IMG/VR virus record: IMGVR_UViG_3300025289_000025
Coordinates: 1-64,000 of that record
DNA from: a virus
Reading direction: 5' to 3' (one strand)
Length of the DNA: 64,000 nt
Every line of letters begins with the position of its first letter. The first letter of the stretch is position 1. Below the pieces are notes generated by a model that worked only from the letters and a program-made list of their open reading frames with translations, ran no database searches and was not told the DNA's origin. The translations under genes were made by a program, and so were the position numbers. Positions 2,153 through 48,188 of the stretch are shown one piece after another.

Positions 2153-4261
2153 ATGACAACGCGATTGGAATTACTTCGGAAAAGCCCAATCACTAAGAAC
2201 GCCATTGATGCCGTTTTCCTTCGTAATAAGCAAATGTTGGGGGTAACTGAAGATGATGTAATGCGAGAGCCTTATAAGAAATCGGATTTAGTTTATATTT
2301 GTATTTCTACCACTGCTAAGGCCATTTCTCAAGTTCCTTTGATAGTGGTTCGGAACTTTGGTCTTAGTGGGGAGTATAAACCCCTTCCGGATACTGATCC
2401 TTGGTCTCAGTTATTTATTAGACCCAATTATATTACTGATAGATATTCTTTTGTGGAGTCTATTATTACTTATCTATTGCACGATGGAGAAGTTTTCATT
2501 GTTCCTTATCCCCCCGGTTTGGGTCCCCCCGGCTCCCTTTGGGTGGTGAGAAATAAGTTTATCAGGCCGATGAAAGATCCCAAAACGAATCTTTTGTTAG
2601 GGTGGCTTTATAATCAATCAGGGCAATTCACCGAAGGTGGACTATCCTCCACTGCTGAAGGAATTCCTTTGCATGTAGATGAGGTTGCTAGGGTATATTT
2701 ATTCAACCCCTACGACCCGTTGAAAGGAATATCTCCTTTAGAAGCAGGAAAAATGAGTATAGTAGTTGATTATAAAGCATCTTTTTATACATCTGTATTC
2801 TTTGATGAAGGGGCTTCCCCTGGCGGGGTAATTTCTACTGAGCAAAAATTAGGAGATAAACAATTCAATCGTACTAGAGAACAATTCGAGTCTCGTCATC
2901 AAGGGTTTAAGAAAGCCCATCGTATTGCAGTATTGGAGCAAGGATTAAAGTATACTCAAACAGGTTTGAATCAAAGAGATATGGAATTTGGGGATTTAAG
3001 AAAACAAACAGCGGAAAGAATCTATCAGATTTTTGGTATGAAAAAGGCCATTGTTTCGGTTATGGAAGATGTGAATTACGCCACAGCACAGGCTGAGCGC
3101 AAGGAGTGGTGGGAAGGTACTAACCTTCCCTTAATGTCATTAACTACTTCGGCGTTGAATTTTATTCTGTTTCGTCAGAATTCCGATCTTCGGTTGATAT
3201 TTGATACCACCACCGTAGCAGCTTTGAAAGAAGCGTTGAAGGAAAAGGTAGAGACGGGATATAAACTTTGGCAAATGGGGTTCGCTGCCAATGAGATCAA
3301 TCAGCGACTCGATATGGGATTTGGTAATAAGCCTTGGCGTAACGTTGCGTTTGTCGCAGTTAATTTGCAACCGGTGGACCGTGCCCTCAATCCGCCAAAG
3401 CCAACCGTGCCAGAGTTGCCGCCACCCCCTGTATCACCCCCTGCGCTTCCCCCGCCAAAGCCTCCGAAGGCGTTGACGGAAGGGGGAGAGGAGAAATTAT
3501 CGGATAAAGACGAAGCTAGAGGAGAGCAAAGTTGGAATAATTTTATTCAAAAGACTGCCCCTTTGGAAGAGAAGTTCGAAAAGAAGGTGACAAGAGTATT
3601 TATGGATATGAGGAGTAGGTCTTTGGAGAGTTTGTATAAAAATACCAAGGCTCCCAAGGATTTGGATGATGAGCTTTTTTCAGAGGATTCTAAAAATATT
3701 TCTAAATTTACTGATCCCCTTTACGGGGATGCTATAATAGTGGGTTTTACTACTATGTTAGACGATATTGGTTCTTCCATTGTATTTAGTTTATCTGACC
3801 CCGAAGCATTAGCATTTTTAGCAACGAAAAATATTCAAATTAAGGGAATTATTCAAACTATTAAAGATCAGATACGGGTAGAATTAATGGAGGCGTATGA
3901 AAAAGGAGAAACGATTGATGAGATAGCGGCTCGCATTAGAAATGTTTTCAATATGTCTAATAGCAGAGCTAAAATCATTGCTCGTACTGAAATTCTCGGG
4001 GCAGCTGGAGAAGGCAGAAGTTTAGCGATAAACCGATCTGGATATAGAGAGAAAAGATGGTTTACTGCAATGGACGAAAGAGTACGGATGGCTCATAGAG
4101 CAATGCACGGAAAAACAGTTAAGGTGGGAAATATGTGGGTTTTGCCTGATGGGAGTTCTTTAAGATATCCAGGAGATCCCCAAGGACCAGCAAGACAAGT
4201 TGTGCAGTGTCGTTGCATTGAAACCGTAGTTTTTGAAAGTCATTTCCTTTTGGAAACTTGA
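2153..4261 (+). CDS. Portal protein fused to a MuF-like head morphogenesis domain
   Basis: The N-terminal 400 residues match the HK97-type portal, the dodecameric ring through which DNA enters the head; the stretch that ends DVNYATAQAERKEWW is typical. Residues about 412-441 form a proline-rich linker. The C-terminal 110 residues are a phage Mu gpF-like domain: SRAKIIARTE, then KRWFTAMDERVRMAHRAMHG, then a CRC motif near the end. In most phages these are two adjacent genes, and here they are one 702-residue frame. The ATG has a GGGGAGAAGG site. The copy number of the MuF part would be set by the portal ring if the fusion is not cleaved. Confidence 0.9.
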   Translation: MTTRLELLRKSPITKNAIDAVFLRNKQMLGVTEDDVMREPYKKSDLVYICISTTAKAISQVPLIVVRNFGLSGEYKPLPDTDPWSQLFIRPNYITDRYSFVESIITYLLHDGEVFIVPYPPGLGPPGSLWVVRNKFIRPMKDPKTNLLLGWLYNQSGQFTEGGLSSTAEGIPLHVDEVARVYLFNPYDPLKGISPLEAGKMSIVVDYKASFYTSVFFDEGASPGGVISTEQKLGDKQFNRTREQFESRHQGFKKAHRIAVLEQGLKYTQTGLNQRDMEFGDLRKQTAERIYQIFGMKKAIVSVMEDVNYATAQAERKEWWEGTNLPLMSLTTSALNFILFRQNSDLRLIFDTTTVAALKEALKEKVETGYKLWQMGFAANEINQRLDMGFGNKPWRNVAFVAVNLQPVDRALNPPKPTVPELPPPPVSPPALPPPKPPKALTEGGEEKLSDKDEARGEQSWNNFIQKTAPLEEKFEKKVTRVFMDMRSRSLESLYKNTKAPKDLDDELFSEDSKNISKFTDPLYGDAIIVGFTTMLDDIGSSIVFSLSDPEALAFLATKNIQIKGIIQTIKDQIRVELMEAYEKGETIDEIAARIRNVFNMSNSRAKIIARTEILGAAGEGRSLAINRSGYREKRWFTAMDERVRMAHRAMHGKTVKVGNMWVLPDGSSLRYPGDPQGPARQVVQCRCIETVVFESHFLLET

Positions 4262-4280
4262 TAATTAGAAGGAGGTTACA

Positions 4281-5810
4281 ATGGCTGCCAAATTAGTAGG
4301 TCAGGACGGAACCCCCGTAAAGTATCAAGGAAAAGAAGTTTTCAGTTCCGATTACTCGGGGGTGGTTAAATCTGTAGATATGATGAAACGAACCCTCGTT
4401 ATGACAGGGACAGATGAGACCAAGGATAGAGACGGTGATATTATCCGGTTGTCCGGTTGGAATATGGATAACTACAAGAAGAACCCCGTTTTCCTTTGGG
4501 CCCACAATTATGGGTCAGTCCCTCTTGCTAGGGCCGAAAAGGTTACAAAAAAGAAAGAACCCCCTAGGATGGAGTTTTTGCTTCAGTTCCCCACAAAGGG
4601 GATTTACCCCTTCGCTGATATGATTTTGGAATTGTACGAGGAAAAGATAATTAACGCTTCTTCAGTGGGATTTATTCCTATGAAGTGGAATCCTATTGAA
4701 GAGGATAAGAACGATGATAATCGTAGAAATCCATATGGAAGAGAGTATATTGGTCAGGAACTTTTGGAACTTTCAGGATGCGCAGTTCCGTCTAATCCTA
4801 GTGCGGTTCAGAATGCTTTGAAGGGAAAGAATTTTGGATTTAAAGATGATGATCTTTTGAAATATCTTACGGGGGCAACGCTAATCCCTCGTCCAGAGAA
4901 GGAAGATGATATCATTGATGAATTAGATAAATCAGAAACGGAGATCGTTGACGAGACTACTATTCAAGTTCAAGTGGCAGAGAATTTGAATAAGTCTGAA
5001 GATGACGTGACTCTCACTATTGCCCCAGAAGTTGTAGAAGAGGATACCAAAATTTCTCCCCCAGTAGAGGAAGTCGTAGAAGATCCTCCAGAGGGGGAAA
5101 AAGAGATGACGATGGATATGTGTGGGTCGGGGGATCTTCCCATCAACCCCGATTCATCTTGGGATGGGAAAGCGGCTATTGCTAGAATGAAAGAGCTTTG
5201 TGGGGGTCCAGATAAGGATAAGATGAATTGGGAGAAATATGGCAAGGGATTTGTAATGAGGGATGGGGCTAACAAGGAAAGTTTTGGGTCTTATAAACTT
5301 CCCTTTGCAGATGTAAAGGATGGAAAACTCACTGCGGTTTGGGGTGGAGTTATGCGAGCTATGAGTGCTGTTCATGGTGCTCGTGGCGGAATGAATGCTT
5401 CTGATGTAGATAAGAAGAAAGCCCATAATTTCTTGGCGGGGTACTATAAGAAATTTGATAAACCCGTTCCAGAAATGACTTCTGTTTTCGATGTAGAAGA
5501 ATTAATGGTAGATTTTTCTGAGGAAATCCGTAAGATTAAGGAAGAGTTATTTATTAGCAACCAGACTTTAGAGTCAATGGTTGCAGAGATAAAGGGTATC
5601 CAGGACTCTTTGGCGAAAGCCCTTGAAGAGATCCAGAGGAAACCCAAGTCTGGAAATGGAACGTCGGATTTTATTTTGAAAGAGGCTTTCAATCAGGGGA
5701 GGGGAAAGATAGAAAATCCTCCCACAGAGAAGTACAGCAAGGAATCGTTGAACAGTTTGAGATTAGCTTTAGTTGAAGTAGCGAAGGCGATGAAAAACAT
5801 AAAACTTTAA
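4281..5810 (+). CDS. Prohead maturation protease (S78 type) with C-terminal extension
   Basis: This is the HK97-family serine protease that cleaves the scaffold during head maturation. The likely catalytic histidine is in FLWAHNYGS and the likely serine in INASSVGF, both in the first 140 residues. Residues about 270-390 form a second domain with paired WxG and FGSYKLPFADV motifs, which is found attached to other phage capsid proteases. The last 110 residues are charged, with coiled-coil potential, and could act as scaffold. At 509 residues it is about twice the length of a bare protease. An AAGGAGGT site precedes the ATG, and the capsid gene follows directly. Confidence 0.88.
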   Translation: MAAKLVGQDGTPVKYQGKEVFSSDYSGVVKSVDMMKRTLVMTGTDETKDRDGDIIRLSGWNMDNYKKNPVFLWAHNYGSVPLARAEKVTKKKEPPRMEFLLQFPTKGIYPFADMILELYEEKIINASSVGFIPMKWNPIEEDKNDDNRRNPYGREYIGQELLELSGCAVPSNPSAVQNALKGKNFGFKDDDLLKYLTGATLIPRPEKEDDIIDELDKSETEIVDETTIQVQVAENLNKSEDDVTLTIAPEVVEEDTKISPPVEEVVEDPPEGEKEMTMDMCGSGDLPINPDSSWDGKAAIARMKELCGGPDKDKMNWEKYGKGFVMRDGANKESFGSYKLPFADVKDGKLTAVWGGVMRAMSAVHGARGGMNASDVDKKKAHNFLAGYYKKFDKPVPEMTSVFDVEELMVDFSEEIRKIKEELFISNQTLESMVAEIKGIQDSLAKALEEIQRKPKSGNGTSDFILKEAFNQGRGKIENPPTEKYSKESLNSLRLALVEVAKAMKNIKL

Positions 5811-5820
5811 GGAGGCAGTT

Positions 5821-7167
5821 ATGGTTAAGAAGTTCGTTAAGTCAGCTACTGGCGTTTTGGTTCTCGCAACCCCAGAGCAGGAAGCGGATGCGAGTATCGA
5901 GAAATTTGAGGTGGAGGATCGCACCAACGTCAACCCGCCTGATCCCATCGTGGAACTAACTGGGATTGTTCGTGAGATGGCCACCAGTCTTAGTGATATC
6001 AAGGAGAAGGCTGATCAGCAGGGCGATGCGTTGGAAGCCTACAGGAAGGCGGTGGATCGTGGGTTTCTTCCCCCGAATCCGAAGACAGGTCCCACAGTAG
6101 ATTCGGCCTCGGATGAACTGAAGAGTATCATGGGGCATTATGAACTTGCCTTCCAGGGCAAAGAACTCATGTCTCGAACGGTCCACCCGAACCATGTCAT
6201 TGATGAGCCTACTAGGTTGGAGATGGCAAAGTTTTATGCTCTTTTCCTTCGTCACACTCTTCAGCAGGATTGGAGAGCAAAAGATCAGTTTTGGAAGTAT
6301 TTTGGTCCCCAGATGAAGACAGCAGTCGGGGATTCCGGAAATACTTTCCCCCTCCCGGATATTGTGGATTCAGAAATCCTTGCGTTTGCCCGTGAGGTTT
6401 CTGTAGTTCTGCAGTACTCCCGGATTTGGCCTATGTCCTCGGATAAGCAGTCCTTCCCGTCTGAGACTGCATCTGCATCAGTTGCTTGGGGGAATACCAC
6501 CTCACAGTCCGAGCCGGGAATTACAGAAGTTGAGCTGGATGCCAACGAGCTTTCGGCATACAGTGTTGTGAAGAATGCCACCTTGATGGATGCCCGCTCG
6601 GACATCGTTTCTTGGCTGACGGCGGCTCTGGCAGAGGCGGCGGGACAGGAACTGGATAATCAGGCATTTAACGGTTCTGGCTCTCCGTTCTTCGGTATTC
6701 TGGATGCGACGGGTGCCGGGTATTCTGTTACGCTTGGTGGGTCTTCCTTCTCTGACGTCACCTTCACGGACTTCTCCAGTATGATTGCCAAGCTGGACGG
6801 TCTGCGGAAGCAGGGTGCCCGGTTCTGGATGCATGGACAGGGACTCCATCTGGTTCGGACGTTGAAGGATGACCAGAATCGCCCGATCTTCTACGATACT
6901 GTTGGTCAGCCCACTTCAGGGACCATTTTGGGGTTCCCGTACTCGGAAGTCATGAAGATGCCTTCCACTACGGGGGCTTCCACGGCTTTCTTGGCCTTCG
7001 GTAATCTTCGGTATCTTGGGGTTGGACGTAGGCTTGAAGTATCCACCCTTTCCGCAGATCCGTATGGCCTGTGGACTACCAACCGGATGCGGTATAAGTT
7101 GTACCAGCGTTGGGGCATGAAGATCGGACTTCGGAATGGCCTTGTCCGGATGCTGACCTCTTCGTAA
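5821..7167 (+). CDS. Major capsid protein, HK97 fold
   Basis: This 448-residue protein forms the head shell. Residues 1-105 are polar and helical, as expected for a delta domain that is removed by the upstream protease. From about residue 160 the sequence has HK97-type capsid features: GDSGNTFPLPDIVDSEI, then QELDNQAFNGSGSPFFGIL, and a C-terminal domain ending with GLRNGLVRM. Base composition is visibly more GC-rich than in neighbouring genes, which fits codon choice for very high expression. An AAGGAGG site sits seven bases before the ATG, and a strong hairpin follows the stop. Confidence 0.95.
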   Translation: MVKKFVKSATGVLVLATPEQEADASIEKFEVEDRTNVNPPDPIVELTGIVREMATSLSDIKEKADQQGDALEAYRKAVDRGFLPPNPKTGPTVDSASDELKSIMGHYELAFQGKELMSRTVHPNHVIDEPTRLEMAKFYALFLRHTLQQDWRAKDQFWKYFGPQMKTAVGDSGNTFPLPDIVDSEILAFAREVSVVLQYSRIWPMSSDKQSFPSETASASVAWGNTTSQSEPGITEVELDANELSAYSVVKNATLMDARSDIVSWLTAALAEAAGQELDNQAFNGSGSPFFGILDATGAGYSVTLGGSSFSDVTFTDFSSMIAKLDGLRKQGARFWMHGQGLHLVRTLKDDQNRPIFYDTVGQPTSGTILGFPYSEVMKMPSTTGASTAFLAFGNLRYLGVGRRLEVSTLSADPYGLWTTNRMRYKLYQRWGMKIGLRNGLVRMLTSS

Positions 7168-7364: not shown

Positions 7365-7526
7365 ATGATACAAAATCCTACTCCCAAATCCACCAAGTAC
7401 GTTTGCGGAAAATGCAAGACTATATTTTCTCCTTGGGGAGAGGGTATGTATGCCAAATGTCCTAAGTGCGGAAGTAGAGATATCAAGGAAATGGTACAAA
7501 CCAAAACGGAGGTAATTCAGAAATGA
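7365..7526 (+). CDS. Small zinc-ribbon protein
   Basis: A 53-residue protein with CGKC then CPKC separated by 14 residues, the spacing of a treble-clef or rubredoxin-like zinc ribbon. It has a GGAGGG site before its ATG, and its TGA overlaps the ATG of the next gene. It is the first of four similar zinc ribbons spread over three consecutive genes. Function unknown. Confidence 0.65.
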   Translation: MIQNPTPKSTKYVCGKCKTIFSPWGEGMYAKCPKCGSRDIKEMVQTKTEVIQK

Positions 7527-7825
7527 AGGCTTCCTTCAAGTGTGAGAATTGTTTAGCAGAGACTATTATTTCTGGGGAAGGCCCTCGTCATTTAGGTTGT
7601 CAGTCTTGTGGTTGCGGGGATATTAAATTCGATGCTGATGTTATAGTGTCCCCTATTTCTAGTAAAGACCCGGGAGATGTCTTTCCCCCAGTTTTTGTGA
7701 AGAAAGGAGAGAGTTTTTTGGGTAGTCATTCCTCGGGATGTTCTTGGAAATTAACTTTTCCTGTCGTTGTCCCTGCTGTAGTCCCTGTACTGAAAATTAG
7801 AAAACCCCTTACTCCCAAGGGCTAA
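7523..7825 (+). CDS. Zinc-ribbon protein
   Basis: A 100-residue protein with CENC and CQSC separated by 15 residues near its start, so it resembles both its upstream neighbour and the N-terminus of the next gene. The rest is low in recognisable signal, with a hydrophobic VVVPAVVPV stretch. It is coupled to both neighbours: a four-base overlap upstream and ten bases downstream. Possibly an adaptor for the enzyme encoded next, by context only. Confidence 0.6.
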   Translation: MKASFKCENCLAETIISGEGPRHLGCQSCGCGDIKFDADVIVSPISSKDPGDVFPPVFVKKGESFLGSHSSGCSWKLTFPVVVPAVVPVLKIRKPLTPKG

Positions 7826-7835
7826 GGGGAGGGAA

Positions 7836-10800
7836 ATGCCGGATTTTACAATAATTTGTAGTAAGTGCAAAAAAACAAAAACCTTTAAGCATCCTACTAG
7901 GGCTACTTTAACTTGCCAATCTTGTGGTAATAAGAGTGGTTTTGTTTCCCACCCAGAAGATTTTGAGTATAATGCCTTAATCCTCCGTTGCCAGAAATGT
8001 GATGAATCTTTTTTAGTTAAATTTGGTTTGGATTCTTTATTGCGTTGCCCCTCTTCTAAATGTGGTGGTTTTCTTTTGGATTCTATCGAATTTGTTTCTA
8101 TATCTACTATACAGGATCAAATGGAGAATAAAAAATCAAATGTAGTTATGGATAATTTTCCTAAAAACTCTTCTTTTTTAAAACGCAACAAAATTATTTA
8201 TAAAACGTCTGATGAAGGTATGAGAATAGCTATTCCTTATTATTATGGTGGAAGTAGAATTCAACGGGCAATAGAAAGTTGGATTTATCCGGAAACCGTT
8301 TTTGTTTTAACAGATCTGGGGATCATCCCACCTGGGAATGGTATATGTAGCCAAATATTCACGGAAAAAAATTCTAAAACAGAAGGATTGAATAATAGAA
8401 CGCAGCCTTATTTAATAGATATTCTTTCTAGATTAATTAAACTTTTTCCTTATGAGAAGTATTACGGTTATTTTAATTCTGATGTTATCCTTCCCCCAGG
8501 ATCTATTATAAAAAGTTTGATTCCTTCTGAAGGAAAAAAGATATCTTTTCATCATAGAATGGATCATAAAGGATCTGCTCAAGATTCTATTTATAAATTG
8601 GAGAAGAAGAACCAAGTATTTTGTGGTAAAGATGGTTTTATAGGAGAAGCGCAAGTAATAAGAGATATAGTAGCAAATGTAAAAGATATGGTTTTGGGGG
8701 GGGCTTCTTGGGATGATGGTTTAGCTGTTTGGTGTTTCCAGAAATATGGCAGAGATAAAGTTGACCTTCGCTATGGGGAAATTTACCATGTTTTGCATCC
8801 TCAAGTTTGGAATGCTGATGATAAGGAATCTACGTTCAATCGTAAACAATTACAATCTATGGGTATATCTGATACCAAAAGGCAATCTTTTAATTGGTTT
8901 AAACAGTCAGAAGGTAGTATCGAAGATTCTTTAGAAGAAAAACATAAATCTTTAGGATTAATACAACCCGGTAGAATTGGTGATATAATAATCGTTCTTC
9001 CCATAGCTAAGTGGTTTCACGATTTGGGTTATAGAGTAATTTGGCCAGTAGTATCAGAATATATAAATTTGTTCGATTACGTAAATTATGTCGATGTTGT
9101 TGATTTGGGTTCTGGTTTAGGGGGTTCTTATAAAAAGTCTAAAGAGGTACTGAAAAATAAGGGTGTTTCTCAGATACTAGATTTAGGTATAGGATTTGGA
9201 AAAGATGAATCTGAGTGGGTTAATTCTGGTATGTCTTTTGATGAGTGGAAATATAAAGAAGCTTGCGTTCCTTTCGAGGAGCGATTTAATTTGGTTATAA
9301 ATAGAAATTTTCAAAAAGAATTGGATTTGGAAAAATCTTTATGTATATTGGGGGAATTCGTATTAACGCACTCCGTTGGATCTAAAGGAAGAATAAATTT
9401 TGGTAAAATAAATTCTATAGAAATTATGGCTAAGACTGGTTTCACTGTTTTTGATTGGATACGGGTGGTAGAGAAAGCAAAAGAAGTTTACTGTGTAGAT
9501 AGTTGTATAGCACATTTGGTTAATCAATTGGGTTTGGCAGTGGGTCGTAGAACGTTTTCTCCCTTGAAGGATTACCATGGCAGATCTCTTGCTATGGCTG
9601 TTCCTAAGATCAATTGGGAAGGTGAGAGGGTATCTACTGTAATTAGAAAGTCCCCCATCGTACCGGACAAATCAAGTGGGCTATTGTTGGCATCTTTACC
9701 GGGGCTTCATACGGGGAACTGGCCTTTGTATCCGTTAGGGATAGGTTATCTTCATTCTTCTTTGAGCAGAGATAGGGATGTTCGGTCTATACATTTTCAA
9801 AAACAATCCCATATGGAGAGTATTTTTCCTAAATTAATAAAAAAATTACTACCCGATATTGTGGGTTTCACTTGCACTACTTTTAATAGGGGAAATGTCA
9901 GGAGGGGAATTAAAACGGTGAGAAGTATTTCGCCCAAAACTAAAATAATTTTAGGGGGAGTTCATCCTACTTTTCTTCCCCATCAGATGATAGAAAATTA
10001 TGGTGCCGATTATGTGGTAATGGGGGAAGGAGAAAATACTCTTAGAGATTTATGTCATATAATTGATAATGGAAAATTACCCTCTGATCTTAGGGGGGTG
10101 GCATATAAAAATGAATCTGGAAATATTTTTGTAAATGATCCCGTAAGTCCCATAGATAATCTTGATTGTCTTCCTCACCCTGATTTTAGTTATGCAGAAC
10201 AAATGATAAAAAATAGTGGGATGGGAAGTATTATTACTTCTAGGGGTTGCCCAGCTAAATGCGGATATTGTTCTACCAGTCATTATTGGGGCCAAAAAGT
10301 TAGGGCACACTCCGTAGATTGGGTTTTGAATGAAATAGAAAGGCAGATTGAACTTTATGGAATAAATAAATTACTTTTCCACGACGATTCTTTTAATTTG
10401 TCTCCATCCAGAGTTCAAGAAATTTGTAAAGGAATGATAGAAAGGAAGTTTGATTTAGTTTGGGCAGCTCAAGGCAGAGTCCACCCCGTTTCTAGGGAAA
10501 TGTTAGATATTATGGTGGAGGCGGGGTGTCGTCATATTTGTTGGGGGGTAGAGTCTGGGTCTAAAACTATGCTTCAATCTATGAGTAAAAAAATTAGTTT
10601 AGAACAAATTAAAAGGACTTATGAATTATGTTCTAAATATGAGGGAGTATTAACTACTGGTGCTTTTACTATGGTGGGGTATCCAGGGGAGAGTTCTCAA
10701 ACTATTAAAGAAACATGTGAATTTTTAAATACGGTTCCTATGACGGATTCCCCCAGCACCGCTATTTTATATGTACTCCCCGGAACAGAGGTTTACAAAC

Positions 10801-11012
10801 AATTGGGAAATAAAATAAATGATGATTATTGGGTAAATACGGAGGATGTTTTTTATAATACCACTGAAAATAATATAAATATTCTTCAGGGTTGGGCTAA
10901 TAAAGTAAATTCAAGTGGGAAGAAAATCCCTGCTGATTCTACTAAACATTTTTGGAACAACATATTATTTGGTAGTATTGCAGAACCTATACCACCTAGT
11001 ATAGATATTTAA
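7836..11012 (+). CDS. Zinc ribbons + glycosyltransferase-like + GT9-like + B12-binding radical SAM fusion
   Basis: A 1058-residue multidomain enzyme. Residues about 5-75 hold two zinc ribbons (CSKC/CQSC and CQKC/CPSSKC). Residues about 125-360 look like a nucleotide-sugar glycosyltransferase of GT-A type, with YFNSDV as a possible metal-binding motif. Residues about 370-600 resemble ADP-heptose-type (GT9) transferases, starting QPGRIGDIIIVLP and ending with a VDSCIAHL block. Residues about 610-745 match a cobalamin-binding domain: GGVHPTFLP, then VMGEGE. From about 785 a radical SAM core carries RGCPAKCGYC (CxxxCxxC), followed by the WGVESGS and GYPGES blocks. B12 radical SAM enzymes methylate or rearrange unactivated carbons, so making and then alkylating a sugar is a reasonable inference. 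The substrate is unknown. Confidence 0.85.
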   Translation: MPDFTIICSKCKKTKTFKHPTRATLTCQSCGNKSGFVSHPEDFEYNALILRCQKCDESFLVKFGLDSLLRCPSSKCGGFLLDSIEFVSISTIQDQMENKKSNVVMDNFPKNSSFLKRNKIIYKTSDEGMRIAIPYYYGGSRIQRAIESWIYPETVFVLTDLGIIPPGNGICSQIFTEKNSKTEGLNNRTQPYLIDILSRLIKLFPYEKYYGYFNSDVILPPGSIIKSLIPSEGKKISFHHRMDHKGSAQDSIYKLEKKNQVFCGKDGFIGEAQVIRDIVANVKDMVLGGASWDDGLAVWCFQKYGRDKVDLRYGEIYHVLHPQVWNADDKESTFNRKQLQSMGISDTKRQSFNWFKQSEGSIEDSLEEKHKSLGLIQPGRIGDIIIVLPIAKWFHDLGYRVIWPVVSEYINLFDYVNYVDVVDLGSGLGGSYKKSKEVLKNKGVSQILDLGIGFGKDESEWVNSGMSFDEWKYKEACVPFEERFNLVINRNFQKELDLEKSLCILGEFVLTHSVGSKGRINFGKINSIEIMAKTGFTVFDWIRVVEKAKEVYCVDSCIAHLVNQLGLAVGRRTFSPLKDYHGRSLAMAVPKINWEGERVSTVIRKSPIVPDKSSGLLLASLPGLHTGNWPLYPLGIGYLHSSLSRDRDVRSIHFQKQSHMESIFPKLIKKLLPDIVGFTCTTFNRGNVRRGIKTVRSISPKTKIILGGVHPTFLPHQMIENYGADYVVMGEGENTLRDLCHIIDNGKLPSDLRGVAYKNESGNIFVNDPVSPIDNLDCLPHPDFSYAEQMIKNSGMGSIITSRGCPAKCGYCSTSHYWGQKVRAHSVDWVLNEIERQIELYGINKLLFHDDSFNLSPSRVQEICKGMIERKFDLVWAAQGRVHPVSREMLDIMVEAGCRHICWGVESGSKTMLQSMSKKISLEQIKRTYELCSKYEGVLTTGAFTMVGYPGESSQTIKETCEFLNTVPMTDSPSTAILYVLPGTEVYKQLGNKINDDYWVNTEDVFYNTTENNINILQGWANKVNSSGKKIPADSTKHFWNNILFGSIAEPIPPSIDI

Positions 11013-11022
11013 AGGAGATAAA

Positions 11023-11892
11023 TTGACTATTCATTTTTTTACCATAGTATTAAATGGAATGCCCTTTATAAAGTACCATATAAAGGTTCTGAAAAATCTC
11101 CCCTTCGATTGGCATTGGCATATTATAGAAGGAATTGCGGATTTAAAATACGATACTTCTTGGTCTTTAAAAACGGGGGGTATGATTACGGAAAAACTTC
11201 ATAGGAATGGATTAAGTAATGATGGAACAACCGAATATATAGATACTCTGAAAAAGGATTTTCCTAATAATATTTCTGTATATAGAAAAGATTTGGGTAA
11301 TTTTTGGGATGGAAAAGTAGAAATGGTAAATGCTCCTATTCCTTATCTCCCTGATCAGTGCCTTCTTTGGCAAATAGATGTAGATGAGCTTTGGGATTTA
11401 GATGGAATTTCTAAAATGGTGGATATGTTTAAAAATAATCCAAATAAAATGTCAGCTTTTGTATATTGCCATTATTTTGTAGGACCCACTAAATTTGTGG
11501 TTTCTATGAATACTTGGGCCACTTTACCGGAAGATTGGTTGAGAATATTTAGGTTTAATAAAGGAATGTATTGGAGCAAGCATGAACCGCCCACATTGGT
11601 AGATAAAGATGGTATTGATTGCGGAAGAAAAAGTTTTATAAGTAGGGATGATACTCTAGTAAAGGGAATAACTTTTCAACACTTTGCCTATGTAATTCCC
11701 CAACAAGTTTTATTCAAGGAAATATATTATGGATATAGGGATGCTTGTAGTTATTGGAGAAATTTGCAAAAAAGTAGGGGTGCGAGGATAGATGTCAGTA
11801 TGTATCTTCCTTGGGCAAATAACGCCATTATAGAAAATTGGGATGAAAAGAAACGTGGGAAGTTATTATATCCGGGAGAGTGCATAGAATGA
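11023..11892 (+). CDS. Glycosyltransferase, GT-A type
   Basis: A 289-residue protein. It opens with a hydrophobic strand, FFTIVLNGMPFI, typical of GT2-like enzymes, and has WQIDVDELWDL at about residues 119-129, where DVDE fits a metal-binding DxD. The start is TTG with AAAGGAGAT seven bases upstream. It sits ten bases after the radical SAM fusion and overlaps the following methyltransferase, so it is part of the same operon. It probably transfers a sugar to a protein or glycan; the acceptor is not visible. Confidence 0.75.
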   Translation: MTIHFFTIVLNGMPFIKYHIKVLKNLPFDWHWHIIEGIADLKYDTSWSLKTGGMITEKLHRNGLSNDGTTEYIDTLKKDFPNNISVYRKDLGNFWDGKVEMVNAPIPYLPDQCLLWQIDVDELWDLDGISKMVDMFKNNPNKMSAFVYCHYFVGPTKFVVSMNTWATLPEDWLRIFRFNKGMYWSKHEPPTLVDKDGIDCGRKSFISRDDTLVKGITFQHFAYVIPQQVLFKEIYYGYRDACSYWRNLQKSRGARIDVSMYLPWANNAIIENWDEKKRGKLLYPGECIE

Positions 11893-12689
11893 ATAATATA
11901 GACATTTTGCAGAAGGATTGGCATATAAAATGGTACCGGGATATATTAGAAGGTGGACCAGAAAAGTGGGATGGTTTTGTCAACCCTGATAGTATTTGGA
12001 GTTGGATGCATACTTATTGTATAGATCATATTAAAGAATTTTTTCAAAATATTCCCCCATCTACCATTATTACTTTGGGGGACGGATATTGTGGTAGAGA
12101 AGCAATTCATATAAAAAGAATAAATTCTAATCACAAAGTCCACGCTTCGGATTGGCAACCGTGTTTGATAGAAGTATCCCATAAATTGGGACTAGTAGAT
12201 GAATTTTCTAATCAAGATATAGGAAATTTAACTTTTGAAGACGATTCATTTGATTTTGTTTTTATAAAAGAATCCCTTCACCATATGTCCATGCCGTATA
12301 AAGGATTGTATGAAATGTTTAGGGTGGCAAAAAGGGGGGTTATTTTAATAGAACCTAGTGGGGATAATGATCCAAAATATCATTTTAATAAATATGAAAT
12401 CGTAGGTAACTATGTATTTGGTTTTTCTTCACATGAGTTAATTAAAATCGGGTTATCATACGGAATTAAAAACTTTGTTTGGACTTATTCCTCCGTTCAT
12501 TTTGGACGACATGATATTGATAATATTAATTTAGGAAAAATAGATGAAGAGAAAAAACGATTAATAGAATTAGATGATAAAATTCCTATAAAAGATAAGC
12601 CATTGATGATATTTTTCTTTTTGAAAGATAAAGAATTATTAAATCATTTTACTGATAAGGATAAATTTAGTAAATTCGAATTTATATAA
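11889..12689 (+). CDS. SAM-dependent methyltransferase, class I
   Basis: A 266-residue protein with a Rossmann-type methyltransferase pattern: motif I-like TLGDGYCGRE near residue 60, the acidic ASDW, then DDSFDFVFIKESLHHM as motif IV and a GVILIEPSGD strand. The ATG at 11889 is preferred over the GTG at 11880 because GGGAGAG lies about nine bases upstream of it. The ATG overlaps the stop of the upstream glycosyltransferase. Probably modifies a sugar or small molecule made by its neighbours. Confidence 0.8.
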   Translation: MNNIDILQKDWHIKWYRDILEGGPEKWDGFVNPDSIWSWMHTYCIDHIKEFFQNIPPSTIITLGDGYCGREAIHIKRINSNHKVHASDWQPCLIEVSHKLGLVDEFSNQDIGNLTFEDDSFDFVFIKESLHHMSMPYKGLYEMFRVAKRGVILIEPSGDNDPKYHFNKYEIVGNYVFGFSSHELIKIGLSYGIKNFVWTYSSVHFGRHDIDNINLGKIDEEKKRLIELDDKIPIKDKPLMIFFFLKDKELLNHFTDKDKFSKFEFI

Positions 12690-12691
12690 AT

Positions 12692-12817
12692 ATGGGGAAG
12701 GTGTTTAGTAAAATGCATATAAAAAAGGCTTTGGGCAGATGCCATTCCGAAGAGACCAAACAAAAAATGAGATTAGCTAGATTGAAATATTATTCGTTTA
12801 AAGGAGAGAATAAATGA
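12692..12817 (+). pseudogene. NUMOD3 remnant of a homing endonuclease
   Basis: A short frame (41 codons) containing CHSEETKQKMR, the NUMOD3 DNA-binding motif of GIY-YIG homing endonucleases. The DNA is nearly the same as part of the NUMOD3 array of the GIY-YIG gene at 14060-14729 (GAAGAGACCAA and CAAAAAATGAGA are shared). No nuclease domain is present. It is best read as the leftover 3' end of a second copy. Its TGA overlaps the ATG of the next gene and its 3' part supplies that gene's AAAGGAGAG site. Confidence 0.6.
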
Positions 12818-13383
12818 TTCCTCATTATTCAGATTTTAAAGATAGGATCGAATCTGTGGAGGGTCTTCTTCTTCCTGGAGAAGACGAGTTTTTATTTAAT
12901 ATGGCGGCCCAAATGCCAGAGGATGGCGCTATAGTCGAAATGGGGAGTTATTTGGGGAAATCTTCGGTGTCTTTAGGATTTCCCTGTTTAGGAACTAAAA
13001 GAAAATTATATTGTATTGATCTTTGGGGGACAGAATCTTGGTTTACTAGTTGGAAAGAAACTATAAATAAATTTGGACTTTCTGAAAATGTAATTCCGTT
13101 GAGAGGATTTGCTGGAGATGTTTTACGAAATTGGGAAAAGTTGACTGGAGGAGTAAAAATAGATATGGTATTTAATGATACTTCTCATTGTCTTCCTAGT
13201 ATTTTGAACGAATTTATTTTGGTTTATCCTTGGGTAAAGAACGAAGGTATAGTGGCTTTTCATGATTATACTCAGGCATCTTACCCCGACGTAGCTAAAA
13301 CTTGGGATGTAGTGAAAACAATGTTATTGAATCATAAAGCCATGGTATCTATCGTATTGGGAAGAAAGGTGGAAATCAAGTGA
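12814..13383 (+). CDS. Class I methyltransferase (MT24-like)
   Basis: A 189-residue protein with IVEMGSYLGKSS as the SAM-binding glycine motif, LYCIDLWG as the acidic second strand, and IDMVFNDTSH followed by GIVAFHDYTQ. This pattern is typical of the methyltransferase_24 group often found beside glycosyltransferases. An AAAGGAGAG site precedes the ATG. It overlaps the next gene by four bases. The substrate is likely a sugar or glycan, by context. Confidence 0.78.
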   Translation: MIPHYSDFKDRIESVEGLLLPGEDEFLFNMAAQMPEDGAIVEMGSYLGKSSVSLGFPCLGTKRKLYCIDLWGTESWFTSWKETINKFGLSENVIPLRGFAGDVLRNWEKLTGGVKIDMVFNDTSHCLPSILNEFILVYPWVKNEGIVAFHDYTQASYPDVAKTWDVVKTMLLNHKAMVSIVLGRKVEIK

Positions 13384-14063
13384 ATTTAATGATGGTAGAT
13401 TCCCTCTCCGTTTTTGGTAAAATCTTGAGAGAGATTATTAAAGAAACTAAGCCAAGGAAGATTATTGAAACAGGGACTTATTTGGGAGAGGGGACTACCA
13501 CAGTAATAGCATCTGCTGTAAGAGATTTTAATATTGATTTAGAAAAATTTTATTCTATAGAAGTTAACCCCCAATATTTTAGGTCTGCATATATTCATCT
13601 TAGAAATTTAGGGCTTTTGGAATTTGTAACTCTGGAGAATGGTTTATCTATTTATAGAAAACAGCTGCCAAATAGAGATAAAATAAGGGAGATGTTTTTA
13701 GATACTATTTGGCCTGACTATGTGTATATAGATCATAATAAAGATATTAGGGTAAATAAATATTTTGAAGAAACTAATTTTGGTGATGTTCCTGAGGGGT
13801 TGTTAATAACGTGTTTAGAAAAGTTGGAACAAACCCCTGATTTAGTATTGTTGGATAGTGGTGGTCACGTGGGGGAGCTAGAGTTTGATACTTTGATTCC
13901 TATGTTGAAGGGGCCTTGTATTATAGCACTTGACGATATTTATCATGTAAAGCATTATAATTCTCTTGTAAAAATAAAGGAAGATAAGCGATTCAAAATA
14001 ATGGAATTATCTAAAGAGAAGTTCGGATTTTGCATCACTAAGTTCATTCCGGAGGGAAATTGA
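13380..14063 (+). CDS. Class I methyltransferase-like protein
   Basis: A 227-residue protein with a related fold: IIETGTYLGEGTT (motif I), FYSIEVNPQ (acidic second strand), PDLVLLDSGGHVG and CIIALDDIYH. The GTG start at 13380 overlaps the previous stop and has AAAGGTGG upstream. It may methylate, or bind SAM in a related reaction, as part of the glycan cassette. The 3' end overlaps the TTG of a GIY-YIG homing gene, which suggests that element inserted just at its stop. Confidence 0.7.
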   Translation: MNLMMVDSLSVFGKILREIIKETKPRKIIETGTYLGEGTTTVIASAVRDFNIDLEKFYSIEVNPQYFRSAYIHLRNLGLLEFVTLENGLSIYRKQLPNRDKIREMFLDTIWPDYVYIDHNKDIRVNKYFEETNFGDVPEGLLITCLEKLEQTPDLVLLDSGGHVGELEFDTLIPMLKGPCIIALDDIYHVKHYNSLVKIKEDKRFKIMELSKEKFGFCITKFIPEGN

Positions 14064-14729
14064 GAAAATTAATTCCCCTCAAGTATAGTATTATTTACAA
14101 AACGACTAATAATATAAATGGTAAAATTTATATTGGTAGAAGTGGGAAAAGAGATTCTAAATATTTGGGATCTGGTAAATTTTTCCTTCGTTCTTTAAAA
14201 AAAATATGGCAAACAAAATTTTAAAAGGGTAGTGATAGATAAATCCGATAATAAAAATGAACTTTGCTTAAAAGAAATATTTTGGATTAAATTCTATGAT
14301 GCTAGAAATCCAAATGTTGGGTATAATATTGGTCTTGGGGGGGAAGGTACGGGGTCGGGGGAAGATCATCCTTTTTACAGGTTGTTTGGGGAAAAACACC
14401 ATCGTTATGGTAAACGGTATTGCCATAGTGAAGAGACTATACGTAAAATGAGTTTAGACCGTCGGGGGGAAAATAATAATAATTACGGTAAAATTACCCC
14501 CGAAGAGACTAAACAAAAAATAAGAAAATCATTGGTAGGAAAAAAACTTTCTGACGAACATAAACGAAAGATAAGGGAGTCGGCATCTGGGGAAAATTAT
14601 GGTATGCGAGGAAAGCATCATAGTGAAGAGACCAAGCAAAAAATGAGAAAACCAAAATCAGAAGAATCTAAAAGAAAAATGAAGGAAGCTTGGGTAAAAA
14701 GAAAAGAAAAGAAAGGATTGGTAGAATGA
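14060..14729 (+). pseudogene. GIY-YIG homing endonuclease with a one-base frameshift
   Basis: The first 45 codons from TTG 14060 give the GIY-YIG core (SIIYKTTN, KIYIGRSG). The second frame, from about 14199, gives the continuation YGKQNFKRVV, the catalytic glutamate in CLKEIFWIKF, GYNIGLGGEG, and at least four NUMOD3 repeats (HSEETxxKM and relatives). The frames meet at an A8 run at 14197-14204; removing one A restores a single protein of about 222 residues. It may be a true pseudogene, a sequencing error, or expressed by slippage on the A run. It is a selfish element inserted between a methyltransferase and a glycosyltransferase gene. Confidence 0.8.
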
Positions 14730-15733
14730 ATATTTTAAAACTTTTTTGGGGAACTGTTACCAACGATCAAAATATCGGGAATTTATTCGGCTATCGCGTT
14801 CATAATGAAATGTTAAAAAAATATATTAAAATGAGGGACGATGTTATATTGGTGGGTTCTGTAGAGGAAGCAGAGGCTTGTTTATATATTTCTACACCAG
14901 AGATATTCGATCATCGACCAAATAAACCGACTTTTCTTTTTACGATGTTCGAGGCCCTATCGTTGCATCCGTTGTATGCCGAGAAAATACAAAAGGCAGA
15001 TTTTATACTAGTGCCCAGTACTTTTGTGAAGGGTGTTTTTTCCCCCCATTTTCCAGAAAATAAAATTTGGGTAGTTCCCCATGGGGTAGAAGAAGATTTC
15101 AGATTTGTTCTTAGAAAAAAGAATCCAAAAAAGTTTCGGTATTTATGGATAGGTGCACCGAATCCAAGGAAAGGCTATCAAGAACTTATCTATGTTTGGG
15201 GGAAATTAGGTCTTTCTAATAATCCAGAAATAGAGTTATATATTAAGACAACGCGTGTCCCTAATGTCACAATACAGAGAAAGGGAAACGTGATTTTAGA
15301 CAGTAGAATCGCCACTAGAGAGGAAATGATCAAAATTTATCAAGATGCTCATTGTTTTGTTTGGCCTACTCGGGGTGAGGGGTGGGGCCTTCCTTTGGCA
15401 GAGGCCATGGCTACTGGGTTGCCTTGTATAGCAACTGGTTTTAGCGGAGTGCTGGACTTTTTCGATTCAAAAGTAGGCTACCCCTTAAAATATAGTTTGG
15501 GTTTGATGGATATGACTTCCCCTATTTTTGGAAATATGGGTAAGGTAGAAGCGGCCTTACCCGATGTTAAAGATTTAATAGAAAATATGATTTATGTTAA
15601 AAATAATTATAAGCATGCCTTGCAAAAAGGCAGATTAGCAAGCGCGAGGATAAAGGCAAGATTCACTTGGGAAAACTCCGCTGAAAATCTAGTTAATGCT
15701 ATTAGAGAAGGATTATCAATAAGAGGTAATTAA
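14726..15733 (+). CDS. Glycosyltransferase family 4 (GT-B fold)
   Basis: A 335-residue protein. The C-terminal half has the GT4 pattern: LWIGAPNPRKGYQELI, IYQDAHCFVWPTRGEGWGLP, and EAMATGLPCIATGFSG, where the glutamates hold the nucleotide-sugar phosphate. The N-terminal domain has VPSTFVKGVF and VVPHGVEE. The ATG at 14726 overlaps the stop of the GIY-YIG gene; an in-frame ATG 36 bases upstream is unlikely because it lies inside that gene. It closes the cargo island, and the head-tail connector starts next. Confidence 0.88.
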   Translation: MNILKLFWGTVTNDQNIGNLFGYRVHNEMLKKYIKMRDDVILVGSVEEAEACLYISTPEIFDHRPNKPTFLFTMFEALSLHPLYAEKIQKADFILVPSTFVKGVFSPHFPENKIWVVPHGVEEDFRFVLRKKNPKKFRYLWIGAPNPRKGYQELIYVWGKLGLSNNPEIELYIKTTRVPNVTIQRKGNVILDSRIATREEMIKIYQDAHCFVWPTRGEGWGLPLAEAMATGLPCIATGFSGVLDFFDSKVGYPLKYSLGLMDMTSPIFGNMGKVEAALPDVKDLIENMIYVKNNYKHALQKGRLASARIKARFTWENSAENLVNAIREGLSIRGN

Positions 15734-16877: not shown

Positions 16878-17963
16878 TTAAACAACCACACATCCACCCG
16901 TTACCATCGGCACGTTGACAAGTGCCCTGGCTCTAATATTTTGAGCCGCGATTGTATCTGCTGGCCCAGCGAGGCCGCATTTAACGCAAACAAAATCGTC
17001 CCTTGTCTTCCTATTCGCTTTGTCGATATGTCCACAAACAGGGCACTCCCGAGAAGTATTTCGGGGATCGACAAGATACAAGGGGATTCCCGAGAGAACT
17101 GCTTTGTAAGTAATGAAAGCCCTCAGTTGAGAGAACCCCCAATTAGACAATCGCGCTCGCTGGTGCCTTCTGGCCGTTGCCCGCTTTCGGATACCGCTAA
17201 GATCCTCTATGGCGATAGCCGATTCGGTGCGTTTGGCATCTGCAACGATTGCCTTCGAAATGCAATGATTCACGTCTTTTTGAAATCTAGCTTGTTGCCC
17301 GGAAATCTTCTTGAGTTTTCTTTTCGCAGAAGAGGTTTGCTTCTTTTGAAGATTGCACCTCCTATGTTCAAATTTACACCGATTTATATTAATTTCCCCC
17401 CCGCTATAAGTCTTCCCTTGAGAATCTACTGCGATATTGACTATACCAAGATCTACTCCAAGAACATCAGTGGTCTTGATCAACTCAGGATCATCAATAT
17501 TACAAACGACGGCGAGATAGAACTTTCCATTAATTCTTATCAAGTCAATTTCGCCCTTTCGGAAGGGAAACAAACTTCTTTGACGCTCCCCCATAACAAA
17601 GGGAATCTTTTGTCGGCCCCCCAAAACCCAAATAGAAACAACGTCATTTTTGGTAAATCGAATAATAGCAGAATCGTAGGGTTGTGCAGAGTCTTTTCGA
17701 AATTTTCGTTGAATCTTTCGTCCCAATTTGTAGGCATCTGCAACTTTAGCGATGGAGCGAATAACCATCTCCGAAGTGATAGGAAAACATTTCCTTGTAT
17801 CATAATACGCAAGTTTGTGAATATTGTATTGGCCAAAAATCTTTGCTTCCCAAGCTCTCTCAGAGAGATAATTGCAGGCATCGTTAGCCATCTCAAGAGT
17901 AGCCTTCAAGAGAGACAATTGCTCTTCTGTAGGCTTCAATTTCAGATTTACAACCAGCTTCAT
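16878..17963 (-). CDS. tnpB: TnpB RNA-guided nuclease (IS605-type, standalone)
   Basis: A 361-residue TnpB. The RuvC catalytic triad appears intact: D171 (GVDLGIVN), E253 (AIEDLSG) and D336 (PADTIAAQNI). A zinc finger lies between the last two (CPVC at 307-310, CVKC at 326-329). No tnpA lies next to it, so mobilisation would need a transposase in trans. It is oriented against the structural genes and sits in the gap between two neck and tail genes without breaking either. It may be kept as a guide-RNA nuclease that favours inheritance of the locus. It is only distantly similar to the TnpB at 48585. Confidence 0.9.
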   Translation of the reverse strand: MKLVVNLKLKPTEEQLSLLKATLEMANDACNYLSERAWEAKIFGQYNIHKLAYYDTRKCFPITSEMVIRSIAKVADAYKLGRKIQRKFRKDSAQPYDSAIIRFTKNDVVSIWVLGGRQKIPFVMGERQRSLFPFRKGEIDLIRINGKFYLAVVCNIDDPELIKTTDVLGVDLGIVNIAVDSQGKTYSGGEININRCKFEHRRCNLQKKQTSSAKRKLKKISGQQARFQKDVNHCISKAIVADAKRTESAIAIEDLSGIRKRATARRHQRARLSNWGFSQLRAFITYKAVLSGIPLYLVDPRNTSRECPVCGHIDKANRKTRDDFVCVKCGLAGPADTIAAQNIRARALVNVPMVTGGCVVV

Positions 17964-18062
17964 ATATTCAAGTATAGAAGTTTTTGTACAATTAGTCTAC
18001 TATTAAATTGGCGCTCTTCCTCGGCTTGAGTATTTGGGGATATTTGTACTAAGGAAGGTGTT

Positions 18063-18503
18063 ATGAGCACTAGAAACGACATATTGGAAGGGTTGAAGGA
18101 TTGTTTGAAAAATATTTCTACGGAGAGGAATTTCAAAACATCTCCTAGAGATGTAGTTAGAAAATTTGTTTTCTTTGATCAAGTCCATACTTTCCCATAT
18201 CTGATGGTGTTAGGGGGAGATGAGCCTTTTGAAGACGAATTGGGAAATAAAACATTAAGTCGTATGCGAGCGAGGGTGGTGGGGTACGCCAAGAGCGCGG
18301 AGAAGCCCGAGGAAGCTCAATGTAATCTGATCGAAGATGTTCTGATTTGTTTAGATAGCGACGAATACAATTTTCAAAAGAAATATATGCGAATTTTAGG
18401 GATCGAAACGGATGAGGGGGTATTGCATATAGCGGGGGATGGTATCTCAATGTTCATTGCAAATCTAGAATTGGTCTTTGTATGGGAGAGGGCGAATCCA
18501 TAA
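18063..18503 (+). CDS. Tail terminator-like protein
   Basis: A 146-residue protein placed where the tail terminator or tail completion protein is expected, between neck and tail tube genes. FPYLMVLGGDEPFEDE and a central RMRARVVGYAK strand resemble small alpha/beta tail terminators, which cap the tail tube. A GGAAGG site precedes the ATG. The assignment rests on position and general form more than on a specific motif. Confidence 0.6.
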   Translation: MSTRNDILEGLKDCLKNISTERNFKTSPRDVVRKFVFFDQVHTFPYLMVLGGDEPFEDELGNKTLSRMRARVVGYAKSAEKPEEAQCNLIEDVLICLDSDEYNFQKKYMRILGIETDEGVLHIAGDGISMFIANLELVFVWERANP

Positions 18504-18526
18504 CATAAAACGGAGGAGGGAAACTT

Positions 18527-19291
18527 TTGAATCCTAATTTAAAGCCATGGCCTGATGACGTTCGTTTAGGTATTGCATGCCCACTTTCGTGGCCCTATGT
18601 CAATAGCCATACGCATATTTCTATGTTAGCCATGGATCGCCCTGACTTTGTTTTATTGGAAGCATCTAGGGGAGGGGATATAGCTGAGAAGAGAGAATCT
18701 CAAGCAGCAGAGGGTCTACGTTTAGGCTGTACCCATATTTTGCTTATGGATGCAGATATGGTCTACCCCCAATCTACGATCAACGATTTATTTCAAGTTC
18801 TTCGGGATCATAGCGCTGATATGGTGGGGGGACTTTGTTATCGGGGATATGAGCCATATGATCCTTTGATATGGGGATTGGAAAAAGAGGATTTACTTAA
18901 ACCCTTTGAGGATTATAAATTCGGAGATATAGTAAACGCAGGGGCCACGGGTGCTGCTTGTCTTTTGATCAAGCGGGAGGTCTTTGAAAAACTGGAACGA
19001 CCATGGTTTCGAATCCAGACGGAAGAGAAAACGGCGGATGGAAAGATAGTGGTGATTAGAAGGGGGGAAGACACTTATTTTACTAGAAATGCAACGGCGG
19101 CGGGATTCAAACTTTTGGTTAACACCGCTTATGATATTGGCCATCTTCGGGAGTTTGCAATAGATAGGCATTTTTGGATTACTTTTGGAATACTCAATGC
19201 CATGGGAAGTTGGAAAGCTGCTTTTAATCTTTTTAAGAGACTGAAAGATAAGGAGTGGGTCGAACGGGAATTAGGAGAAGTGGATAAATAA
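18527..19291 (+). CDS. Glycosyltransferase, GT-A type, inside the tail operon
   Basis: A 254-residue protein with LGCTHILLMDADMVYP, a clear DxD metal and sugar-nucleotide motif, then VGGLCYRGYEP and NAGATGAACLLIKREVFEKL, all typical of GT2-like enzymes. The start is TTG, eight bases after CGGAGGAGGG. It sits between the tail terminator-like and tail tube genes, so it would be made together with virion proteins and may glycosylate one of them. Confidence 0.78.
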   Translation: MNPNLKPWPDDVRLGIACPLSWPYVNSHTHISMLAMDRPDFVLLEASRGGDIAEKRESQAAEGLRLGCTHILLMDADMVYPQSTINDLFQVLRDHSADMVGGLCYRGYEPYDPLIWGLEKEDLLKPFEDYKFGDIVNAGATGAACLLIKREVFEKLERPWFRIQTEEKTADGKIVVIRRGEDTYFTRNATAAGFKLLVNTAYDIGHLREFAIDRHFWITFGILNAMGSWKAAFNLFKRLKDKEWVERELGEVDK

Positions 19292-34261: not shown

Positions 34262-34942
34262 ATGATTCTTGTTCCCCCTAGAACAACCGATATGACTGGG
34301 ACCCAATTCTTTCGTTTGACTGTATTAGGTCTTTCTAGAATTGATAAAGACAAACGGGGGACTACTTCTTTTTGGGAATGCCTCTGCGAATGCGGAAATT
34401 ATCATATTGTTGCTAAAGATAAACTCAAACTAACAAAAAGTTGTGGATGTTTGAAAAGGGAGATTATCAAAGCCGGGGCAAATTTCAAACATGGTTTTTG
34501 TAAGGATGGTCAGATAACTCCGGAATATAGTTGTTGGTCAGGAATGAAGGATCGTTGCTATTGTGAAACCAATCGCAAGTATCCTCGTTACGGTGGAAGA
34601 GGAATTACCATTTGCGATGAATGGAGATATAATTTTGAGGCTTTTCTTGCATATATGGGACCCTGTAATGGGAAAATAATTGATAGAATTGAAGCAGACG
34701 GTAACTATGAACCGGGTAATTGCCGTTGGGTAACTCCTGCAATATCCAATAGAAATTATTCAACTAGAAATCGTAATTATACCCATAATGGCGAAACAAA
34801 GTGTTTGAAGGATTGGGCAGCTCATTTTGGCATAAACTATGCTACCCTCTGGCAACGAATTAAAGATGGCCTAAGTTTTGAGGAAGCCATAGCCCATCGC
34901 CTTAGAGAAAAAATTGTCGTTAGTCAGGTTATTTCTATTTAA
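34262..34942 (+). CDS. HNH/AP2-type homing endonuclease
   Basis: A 226-residue protein of a family common as free-standing endonucleases in phages. A zinc-binding part has CLCECG and SCGCLK. The core is YGGRGITICDEW, then DRIEADGNYEPGNCRWVT, where the asparagine and histidine-like residues form the HNH-type site. The C-terminal 45 residues are a helix-turn-helix (LKDWAAHFGINYATLWQRI) that may bind target DNA. It is the last gene of the plus-strand arm, and its stop overlaps the stop of the convergent gene. Confidence 0.82.
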   Translation: MILVPPRTTDMTGTQFFRLTVLGLSRIDKDKRGTTSFWECLCECGNYHIVAKDKLKLTKSCGCLKREIIKAGANFKHGFCKDGQITPEYSCWSGMKDRCYCETNRKYPRYGGRGITICDEWRYNFEAFLAYMGPCNGKIIDRIEADGNYEPGNCRWVTPAISNRNYSTRNRNYTHNGETKCLKDWAAHFGINYATLWQRIKDGLSFEEAIAHRLREKIVVSQVISI

Positions 34943-48069: not shown

Positions 48070-48188
48070 TTCTTTTTCCTCCTTCTTTTATTTTATTAAA
48101 TTAGTAACTGCTGCCTTTAGGTGGCAGAGGAAACTCCCTCCTTTCGATTAACTTGACTTATATACTCGCCGAACTTATAATAATTTAC

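Follow-up and report, generated by a model that had tools for sequence, protein, structure and literature searches.

How would an uncultured tailed phage employ a B12-dependent radical enzyme that is built into a glycosyltransferase-like protein? This question is raised by a single open reading frame (ORF) at positions 7836–11012 (+) of a 64,000-base stretch of viral DNA, hereafter the window, which comprises bases 1–64,000 of the 90,296-base IMG/VR virus record IMGVR_UViG_3300025289_000025 (the rest of the record is designated L108; the other L numbers are other viral contigs). The window contains a tailed-phage head and tail operon, and the ORF encodes a protein of 1058 amino acids (aa) that joins two zinc ribbons, a GT-A-like and a GT9-like glycosyltransferase (GT) domain, and a B12-binding radical S-adenosylmethionine (SAM) module. 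The same architecture recurs in L003/L004/L005 and L011. Our preferred reading, to which we assign a probability of roughly 55%, is that the protein is a soluble virion-glycan polyenzyme whose B12 radical SAM module C-methylates a sugar or changes it by other radical chemistry.

Domain architecture of the fusion protein

The reading frame runs from an ATG at 7836 to a TAA at 11012 in a single frame with no internal stop. A first-pass annotation, made from the sequence alone, had described the fusion, allowed for an assembly join and proposed looking for the same fusion in other phages. Since independent contigs from other samples hold it at 100% (two contigs), 64% (three) and 59% (one) identity, that objection fails and an assembly join is ruled out. 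All modules of the fusion are under purifying selection: in the comparison of the window with L003, the non-synonymous divergence (dN) is 0.21–0.49 and the synonymous divergence (dS) is near or above 1.

The B12-binding domain (residues 631–739, 9726–10052 (+); Pfam PF02310, E 3.5e-19) lies N-terminal to the radical SAM domain (residues 799–964, 10230–10727 (+); PF04055, E 3.9e-19), as in class B enzymes, and both score far above the Pfam cut-offs. An intact cluster motif, CPAKCGYC (Cx3Cx2C), is found at residue 805 (10248–10271) and is conserved in L003 and L011. Across three lineages with 62–66% identity, the cluster cysteines and most motif residues are invariant, and dN of the module is 0.27 against saturated dS (window versus L003). 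Judged by its sequence, the module, 446 aa long, certainly belongs to the B12-dependent (class B) radical SAM enzymes. OxsB, AprD4 and 9ccb are its relatives in the PDB, while the nearest NCBIfam profiles are PhpK, ApyD and HpnJ; ApyD and C-methyltransferase families for ribosomally synthesized and post-translationally modified peptides (RiPPs) are among the relatives.

At the other end of the protein, residues 1–85 (7836–8090 (+)) form two zinc ribbons, recognised by their cysteine pattern. The residues C8/C11/C27/C30 and C52/C55/C71/C76 are invariant across six aligned homologues, and zinc-ribbon families of Pfam match weakly (best E 1.4e-4, in one member). With these eight cysteines and the two Pfam matches of the radical SAM module, the earlier claim that zinc ribbons and a B12 radical SAM domain share a single intact protein is borne out.

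The region in between is recognised by structure prediction. In the window protein and its close relatives, residues 120–610 match no Pfam or PHROGs family, and Glyco_transf_9 of Pfam matches neither the window protein nor any of the 27 rows in the alignment. A hidden Markov model of the GT parts found no GT among the PDB sequences, and an hhalign comparison of the GT9-like domain with a genuine phage GT9 gave no significant match. An AlphaFold2 (AF2) model of residues 125–605, built with 27 sequences including distant relatives, reached a mean predicted local distance difference test score (pLDDT) of 84.8; a model of all 1058 aa with seven close homologues reached 45 and was not interpreted. 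In Foldseek searches of the PDB, the first domain (residues 130–350, 8223–8885 (+)) matched GT-A enzymes with a probability of about 1.00, namely the bacterial GT6 enzyme BoGT6a (4ayl, E 2.1e-5), KfiA, and 2p6w (E 2e-4)/2p73, which the PDB describes as a glycosyltransferase for glycosylation of the PBCV-1 major capsid. Its NSD (DxD-like) motif at residues 214–216 is invariant in the fused set; members of the wider set have either NSD or NDD. The second domain (residues 370–600, 8943–9635 (+)), a compact GT-B domain resembling GT9 (heptosyltransferases), carries the motif QPGRIGDIII..LP and matched 3tov, WaaC (2gt1/2h1h) and WaaF (1psw) with E 2e-4 to 9e-4 and a probability of 1.00. RmlA-type nucleotidyltransferases, which have a GT-A-like fold in common, were also among the matches. 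The template modelling (TM) scores are modest, target-normalised about 0.4–0.5 for the better matches, which is to be expected where single domains match a query of two. On the predicted structure, a GT-A fold with a DxD-like motif and a GT9 fold are supported, the exact families are not; the two GT-like domains named earlier thus stand as folds, although sequence profiles find neither. Both domains occur as stand-alone genes in other phages, and as candidate enzymes they define two phage GT families missed by Pfam and PHROGs.

An exchangeable slot in a cassette behind the capsid gene

Immediately downstream lies a GT2-like glycosyltransferase ORF (11023–11892 (+)). The first-pass annotation had correctly taken 7836–11012 as one ORF but omitted this neighbour. 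Relatives carry it as part of the fusion protein: the GT2-like part forms the C-terminus of proteins of 1350–1354 aa in L003/L004 and L011. A frameshift between 11012 and 11023 in the window was considered. Since the second ORF has its own TTG start, preceded by a Shine-Dalgarno-like AGGAG directly after the fusion stop (11013–11017 (+), read directly from the sequence), two separate genes are the simpler reading, despite the fusion in relatives. Taken alone, the GT2-like ORF has weak Pfam support (E 0.02); in L154, the homologous region scores above the Glycos_transf_2 cut-off (E 6.9e-10).

The junction between the GT9-like and GT2-like parts is an exchangeable slot. It holds the B12 radical SAM module in the window, L003–L005 and L011. 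In L007/L008, L014, L016 and L154 it is empty, and the zinc ribbons, GT-A and GT9-like domains are joined straight to the GT2-like part, whereas the ribbon-GTA-GT9 protein of L133 has a SAM-methyltransferase domain at its end, directly behind the GT9-like domain (Methyltransf_11, 24.8 bits, cut-off 21.2). As some relatives lack the radical SAM part of the enzyme and another has an ordinary methyltransferase there, this part seems to be an interchangeable module for decorating a sugar coat, which is probably that of the virion. That a SAM-methyltransferase occupies the same position in L133 argues for a methylating role of the slot.

Many further phage contigs (L038, L039, L056, L062, L097 and others) encode homologues of the GTA, GT9-like and GT2-like modules in the same order, but as three adjacent separate genes. 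As the modules are fused in one set of phages and kept as neighbours in another, they probably act together. Some of these triads are interrupted, by a methyltransferase gene between the GT9-like and GT2-like genes in L044 and by a GT25 gene between the GTA and GT9-like genes in L041; no B12 radical SAM gene was found between triad genes in the loci inspected. L156 carries a 1068-aa GT9-GTA-GT9like-GT2 fusion; behind it come genes of the FrhB-like, pyruvyl transferase and Methyltransf_24 types, and after these a distantly related B12 radical SAM gene that stands alone, with PF02310 and PF04055 above cut-off and 26% identity to the window module. This is probably an independent association of a B12 radical SAM enzyme with such a GT cluster. 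The FrhB-like gene (L156:5168-6022), which resembles the coenzyme F420 hydrogenase beta-subunit, stands beside the pyruvyl transferase gene in this phage glycan cluster. The contig also has tape-measure-like and tail-tip-like ORFs, identified by reading and not by profile. In a tree of the GT core, the three lineages bearing the radical SAM module form one group (84/93), surrounded by lineages that lack it; the tree is moderately supported, with long branches for L133 and L156. This topology fits a single gain of the module into a pre-existing fusion.

The fusion gene belongs to a cassette flanked by the capsid gene on one side and the head-tail connector on the other. The conserved upstream neighbour encodes a major capsid protein of the HK97 type (5821–7167 (+); Pfam Phage_capsid, E 2.3e-34), which we propose as the acceptor, and a small zinc-ribbon ORF with CxxC pairs (7523–7825 (+)) lies between it and the fusion; this ORF is 39–76% identical in relatives, and L133 has a zinc-ribbon ORF at the same place. 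Downstream of the GT2-like gene follow a SAM-dependent methyltransferase (Methyltransf_11, 11880–12689 (+), E 8.2e-10), a Methyltransf_24-type methyltransferase (12814–13383 (+), E 2e-14) and a probable Methyltransf_24-like methyltransferase (13380–14063 (+), E 1.1e-4, below cut-off), which has homologues in the cassettes of L003 and L011. The last gene, ahead of the head-tail connector gene, encodes a GT4 glycosyltransferase (14690–15733 (+); Glyco_trans_1_4 E 6.5e-13, PHROG glycosyltransferase E 5e-37). The cassette enzymes all lack membrane-spanning stretches. Among five lineages the capsid protein is 82–88% identical and the GT fusion 55–65%; the cassette therefore diverges faster than the adjoining capsid. 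In L133, whose capsid protein is 52% identical, and L122, with 22%, the GT module still follows the capsid gene either immediately or at a distance of about 1 kb, and in L154 too it is found behind the capsid gene. As no capsid gene of the Phage_capsid Pfam family was found on the separate-gene triad contigs or L156, the capsid linkage is demonstrated only for the ribbon-GTA-GT9 branch.

A NUMOD3-motif protein of the homing-endonuclease type (14232–14729 (+)) is encoded between the methyltransferase and GT4 genes and is absent from L003. TnpB-like transposon ORFs lie at 16878–17963 (−) and 48153–49712 (+) of the window and at 17654–18973 (−) of L003; one of them stands among the head-tail connector genes of the window, and a different one is near the same place in L003.

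Proposed function and alternative readings

In the proposed pathway, the GT-A and GT9-like domains would transfer successive sugars onto an acceptor, and the adjacent GT2-like enzyme would add one more. The B12 radical SAM module, placed between the GT9-like and GT2-like parts, would use SAM, a [4Fe-4S] cluster and methylcobalamin for the C-methylation, or another radical change, of one of these sugars, and the neighbouring methyltransferases and the GT4 enzyme may complete the glycan. The acceptor is probably a virion protein, with the major capsid protein, whose gene lies a short way upstream, as the first candidate. We infer the sugar transfer, the methylation chemistry and the capsid as acceptor. 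The slot, with its methyltransferase or empty variants, and the B12 radical SAM gene of L156 lend support to the earlier suggestion that the radical SAM domain alters the sugar that the other parts transfer, but the reaction itself is deduced. C-methylation of a sugar by a B12 radical SAM enzyme is established for GenD1 (PMC4340712). GenD1 and GenK, the gentamicin C-methyltransferases, are of the same B12 and radical SAM class and act on a sugar carbon, which is the chemistry proposed here; they are, however, stand-alone bacterial antibiotic enzymes, and the window module is nearer to PhpK, ApyD and HpnJ by profile.

In its mode of working, the nearest analogue would be A064R of the chlorovirus PBCV-1, which combines GT, GT and methyltransferase domains in one chain and makes the methylated terminal portion of the capsid glycan (PMC7826918). 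Both are virus-encoded chains with two GTs, A064R with a methyltransferase and the fusion with a proposed methylating domain, and the PBCV-1 capsid GT structures 2p6w/2p73 are among the Foldseek matches. In contrast to A064R, which comes from a eukaryotic virus and carries out O-methylation by an ordinary SAM-methyltransferase, the window fusion has a GT9-like second GT, a B12 radical SAM modifier and zinc ribbons. Viral multidomain GT-GT-methyltransferase proteins for capsid glycans are thus already known, and the radical B12 module is the new part. The first-pass annotation had suspected a new glycan-modifying system of a virion. A virion target is indeed favoured, because the cassette lies behind the capsid gene and its enzymes are soluble, but "new system" is too strong in view of A064R. 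Phage-encoded GTs that glycosylate phage structural proteins including the capsid have been described for the mycobacteriophages Che8 and Rita (Freeman et al. 2023, as cited in PMC11256854 and PMC12619734). The passages on it in these citing papers mention no radical SAM enzyme and place the GT genes of a related phage near the 3′ end of its genome.

Four other readings have to be weighed against a virion-glycan polyenzyme. The glycan might be attached to a host surface molecule (lipopolysaccharide (LPS), capsule or glycolipid), as known from serotype conversion or superinfection exclusion. GT9 enzymes classically make the LPS core, WaaC and WaaF are among the Foldseek matches, O-antigen-modifying phage GTs are common, and related clusters include pyruvyl transferase and epimerase genes. 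Yet the cassette sits inside the head morphogenesis operon and keeps its place behind the capsid gene across divergent phages, and the search for membrane segments, which covered the cassette and included no whole-genome search aimed at a Gtr-type flippase, gave none; we regard a host-surface target as unlikely, though worth keeping in view. It is rather improbable that the radical SAM module modifies the acceptor protein itself, for instance by C-methylating a residue in the manner of RiPP enzymes, with the GTs then glycosylating that residue. The ApyD and RiPP families among its NCBIfam relatives would agree with such a role, whereas the ordinary SAM-methyltransferase in the slot of L133 and the sugar-directed rest of the cassette would not, and Pfam revealed no precursor-peptide recognition domain.

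Zinc ribbons often bind nucleic acid, and phage GTs that act on modified DNA bases are known, as discussed in PMC12619734, so that the GTs might hypermodify phage DNA. This reading is disfavoured because no thymidylate-synthase-family enzyme (PF00303) was found in the 90-kb record, which may be incomplete; the fold matches are GTs for proteins, lipids and oligosaccharides, and the cassette sits among capsid genes, which makes DNA a very improbable target. Hardly credible, finally, is the module as a neutral or decaying insertion without function: it is present in some lineages only, but its low dN against saturated dS and its invariant cluster cysteines speak for constraint.

Several points weigh against the preferred assignment as a virion-glycan polyenzyme. 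The GT identity of both fused domains is drawn from a predicted structure with modest TM scores, and the capsid as acceptor is read from gene position, so that a tail protein or a host molecule could also serve. The module falls short of the curated NCBIfam cut-offs of the named B12 radical SAM families (PhpK, HpnJ, BchE, ApyD and others), the best being PhpK with 156 of 600 bits; ApyD, another of the matching profiles, is a RiPP enzyme. B12 radical SAM enzymes also catalyse ring contraction, dehydration, cyclisation and P-methylation, and since the relative AprD4 is a diol-dehydratase in NCBIfam naming, homology alone leaves methyl transfer unsettled. With regard to the host, its cobalamin supply and anaerobiosis, no cellular genome matched the GT part or the capsid protein, in searches with short peptide patterns that may miss relatives.

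Occurrence, further genes of the phage and significance

A search of 50,697 named phage records gave no match for the GT part and, for the B12 radical SAM part, only Streptomyces phage SF3 (two records) and one faecal contig. The only annotated named-phage match is SF3 gp36, a B12-binding radical SAM protein with 26% identity to the radical SAM part of the window over 298 residues; it is a stand-alone protein, and the annotated genes around it include no glycosyltransferase. In a plasmid collection, among the matches listed, only the radical SAM part was covered. Searches of viral contigs with this part returned the same family alone, the patterns being too specific to gauge how frequent B12 radical SAM proteins are in viruses. 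We found no description of a phage B12 radical SAM enzyme in glycan synthesis in the open-access literature, which is weak evidence of absence, as most subscription journals lay outside this scope.

The phage encodes further candidate glycan enzymes. A 991-aa multidomain protein (34939–37914 (−)) combines GT4, SAM-methyltransferase and GT2 domains, all assigned by Pfam, in an architecture that resembles A064R. A gene of the nucleotide-sugar epimerase family with an intein (LAGLIDADG domain), UDP-glucuronate-decarboxylase-like by eye, lies at L108:3423-5690 (−), which is record 67423–69690, and an FkbM methyltransferase is encoded elsewhere; these three genes also speak for the preferred reading. 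A second, short radical SAM protein (38435–39157 (−), 240 aa) has PF04055 and no B12 domain. A phosphoadenosine phosphosulfate (PAPS)-reductase-type PP-loop protein and a DUF362 protein are encoded at L108:11373-12203 and L108:8664-9506 (−), respectively. Intein-like insertions occur in a DNA-polymerase-like ORF of the window (51639–55163 (−)) and in the L003 terminase and portal genes (63–2639 and 3422–6667); the terminase and portal genes of the window are without them. A 1143-aa ORF (29797–33228 (+)) with dozens of degenerate repeats around "SDSxGISDS" is probably a tail fibre.

Phage virion glycans are a recent topic, and a role in antibody recognition has been reported for those of mycobacteriophages. 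The viral enzymes that we know to act on virion glycans are ordinary glycosyltransferases and methyltransferases. A broader proposal, which we advance tentatively and at somewhat less than even odds, is that phages decorate their virions with sugars made by radical chemistry, an exchangeable B12 radical SAM enzyme having entered a GTA-GT9-GT2 capsid-glycan module on at least two occasions to C-methylate a glycan sugar. If true, this would be, to our knowledge, the first B12-dependent enzyme in virion glycosylation, and the chemistry of the virion coat would depend on host cobalamin and on an oxygen-sensitive step. A natural series for comparison is provided by the relatives, whose slot is empty or is filled by an ordinary methyltransferase or a B12 radical SAM module. 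With a B12 radical SAM enzyme built into a glycan-synthesising protein, radical C-methylation would reach as far as virus coats and would there be linked to the vitamin B12 of the host.

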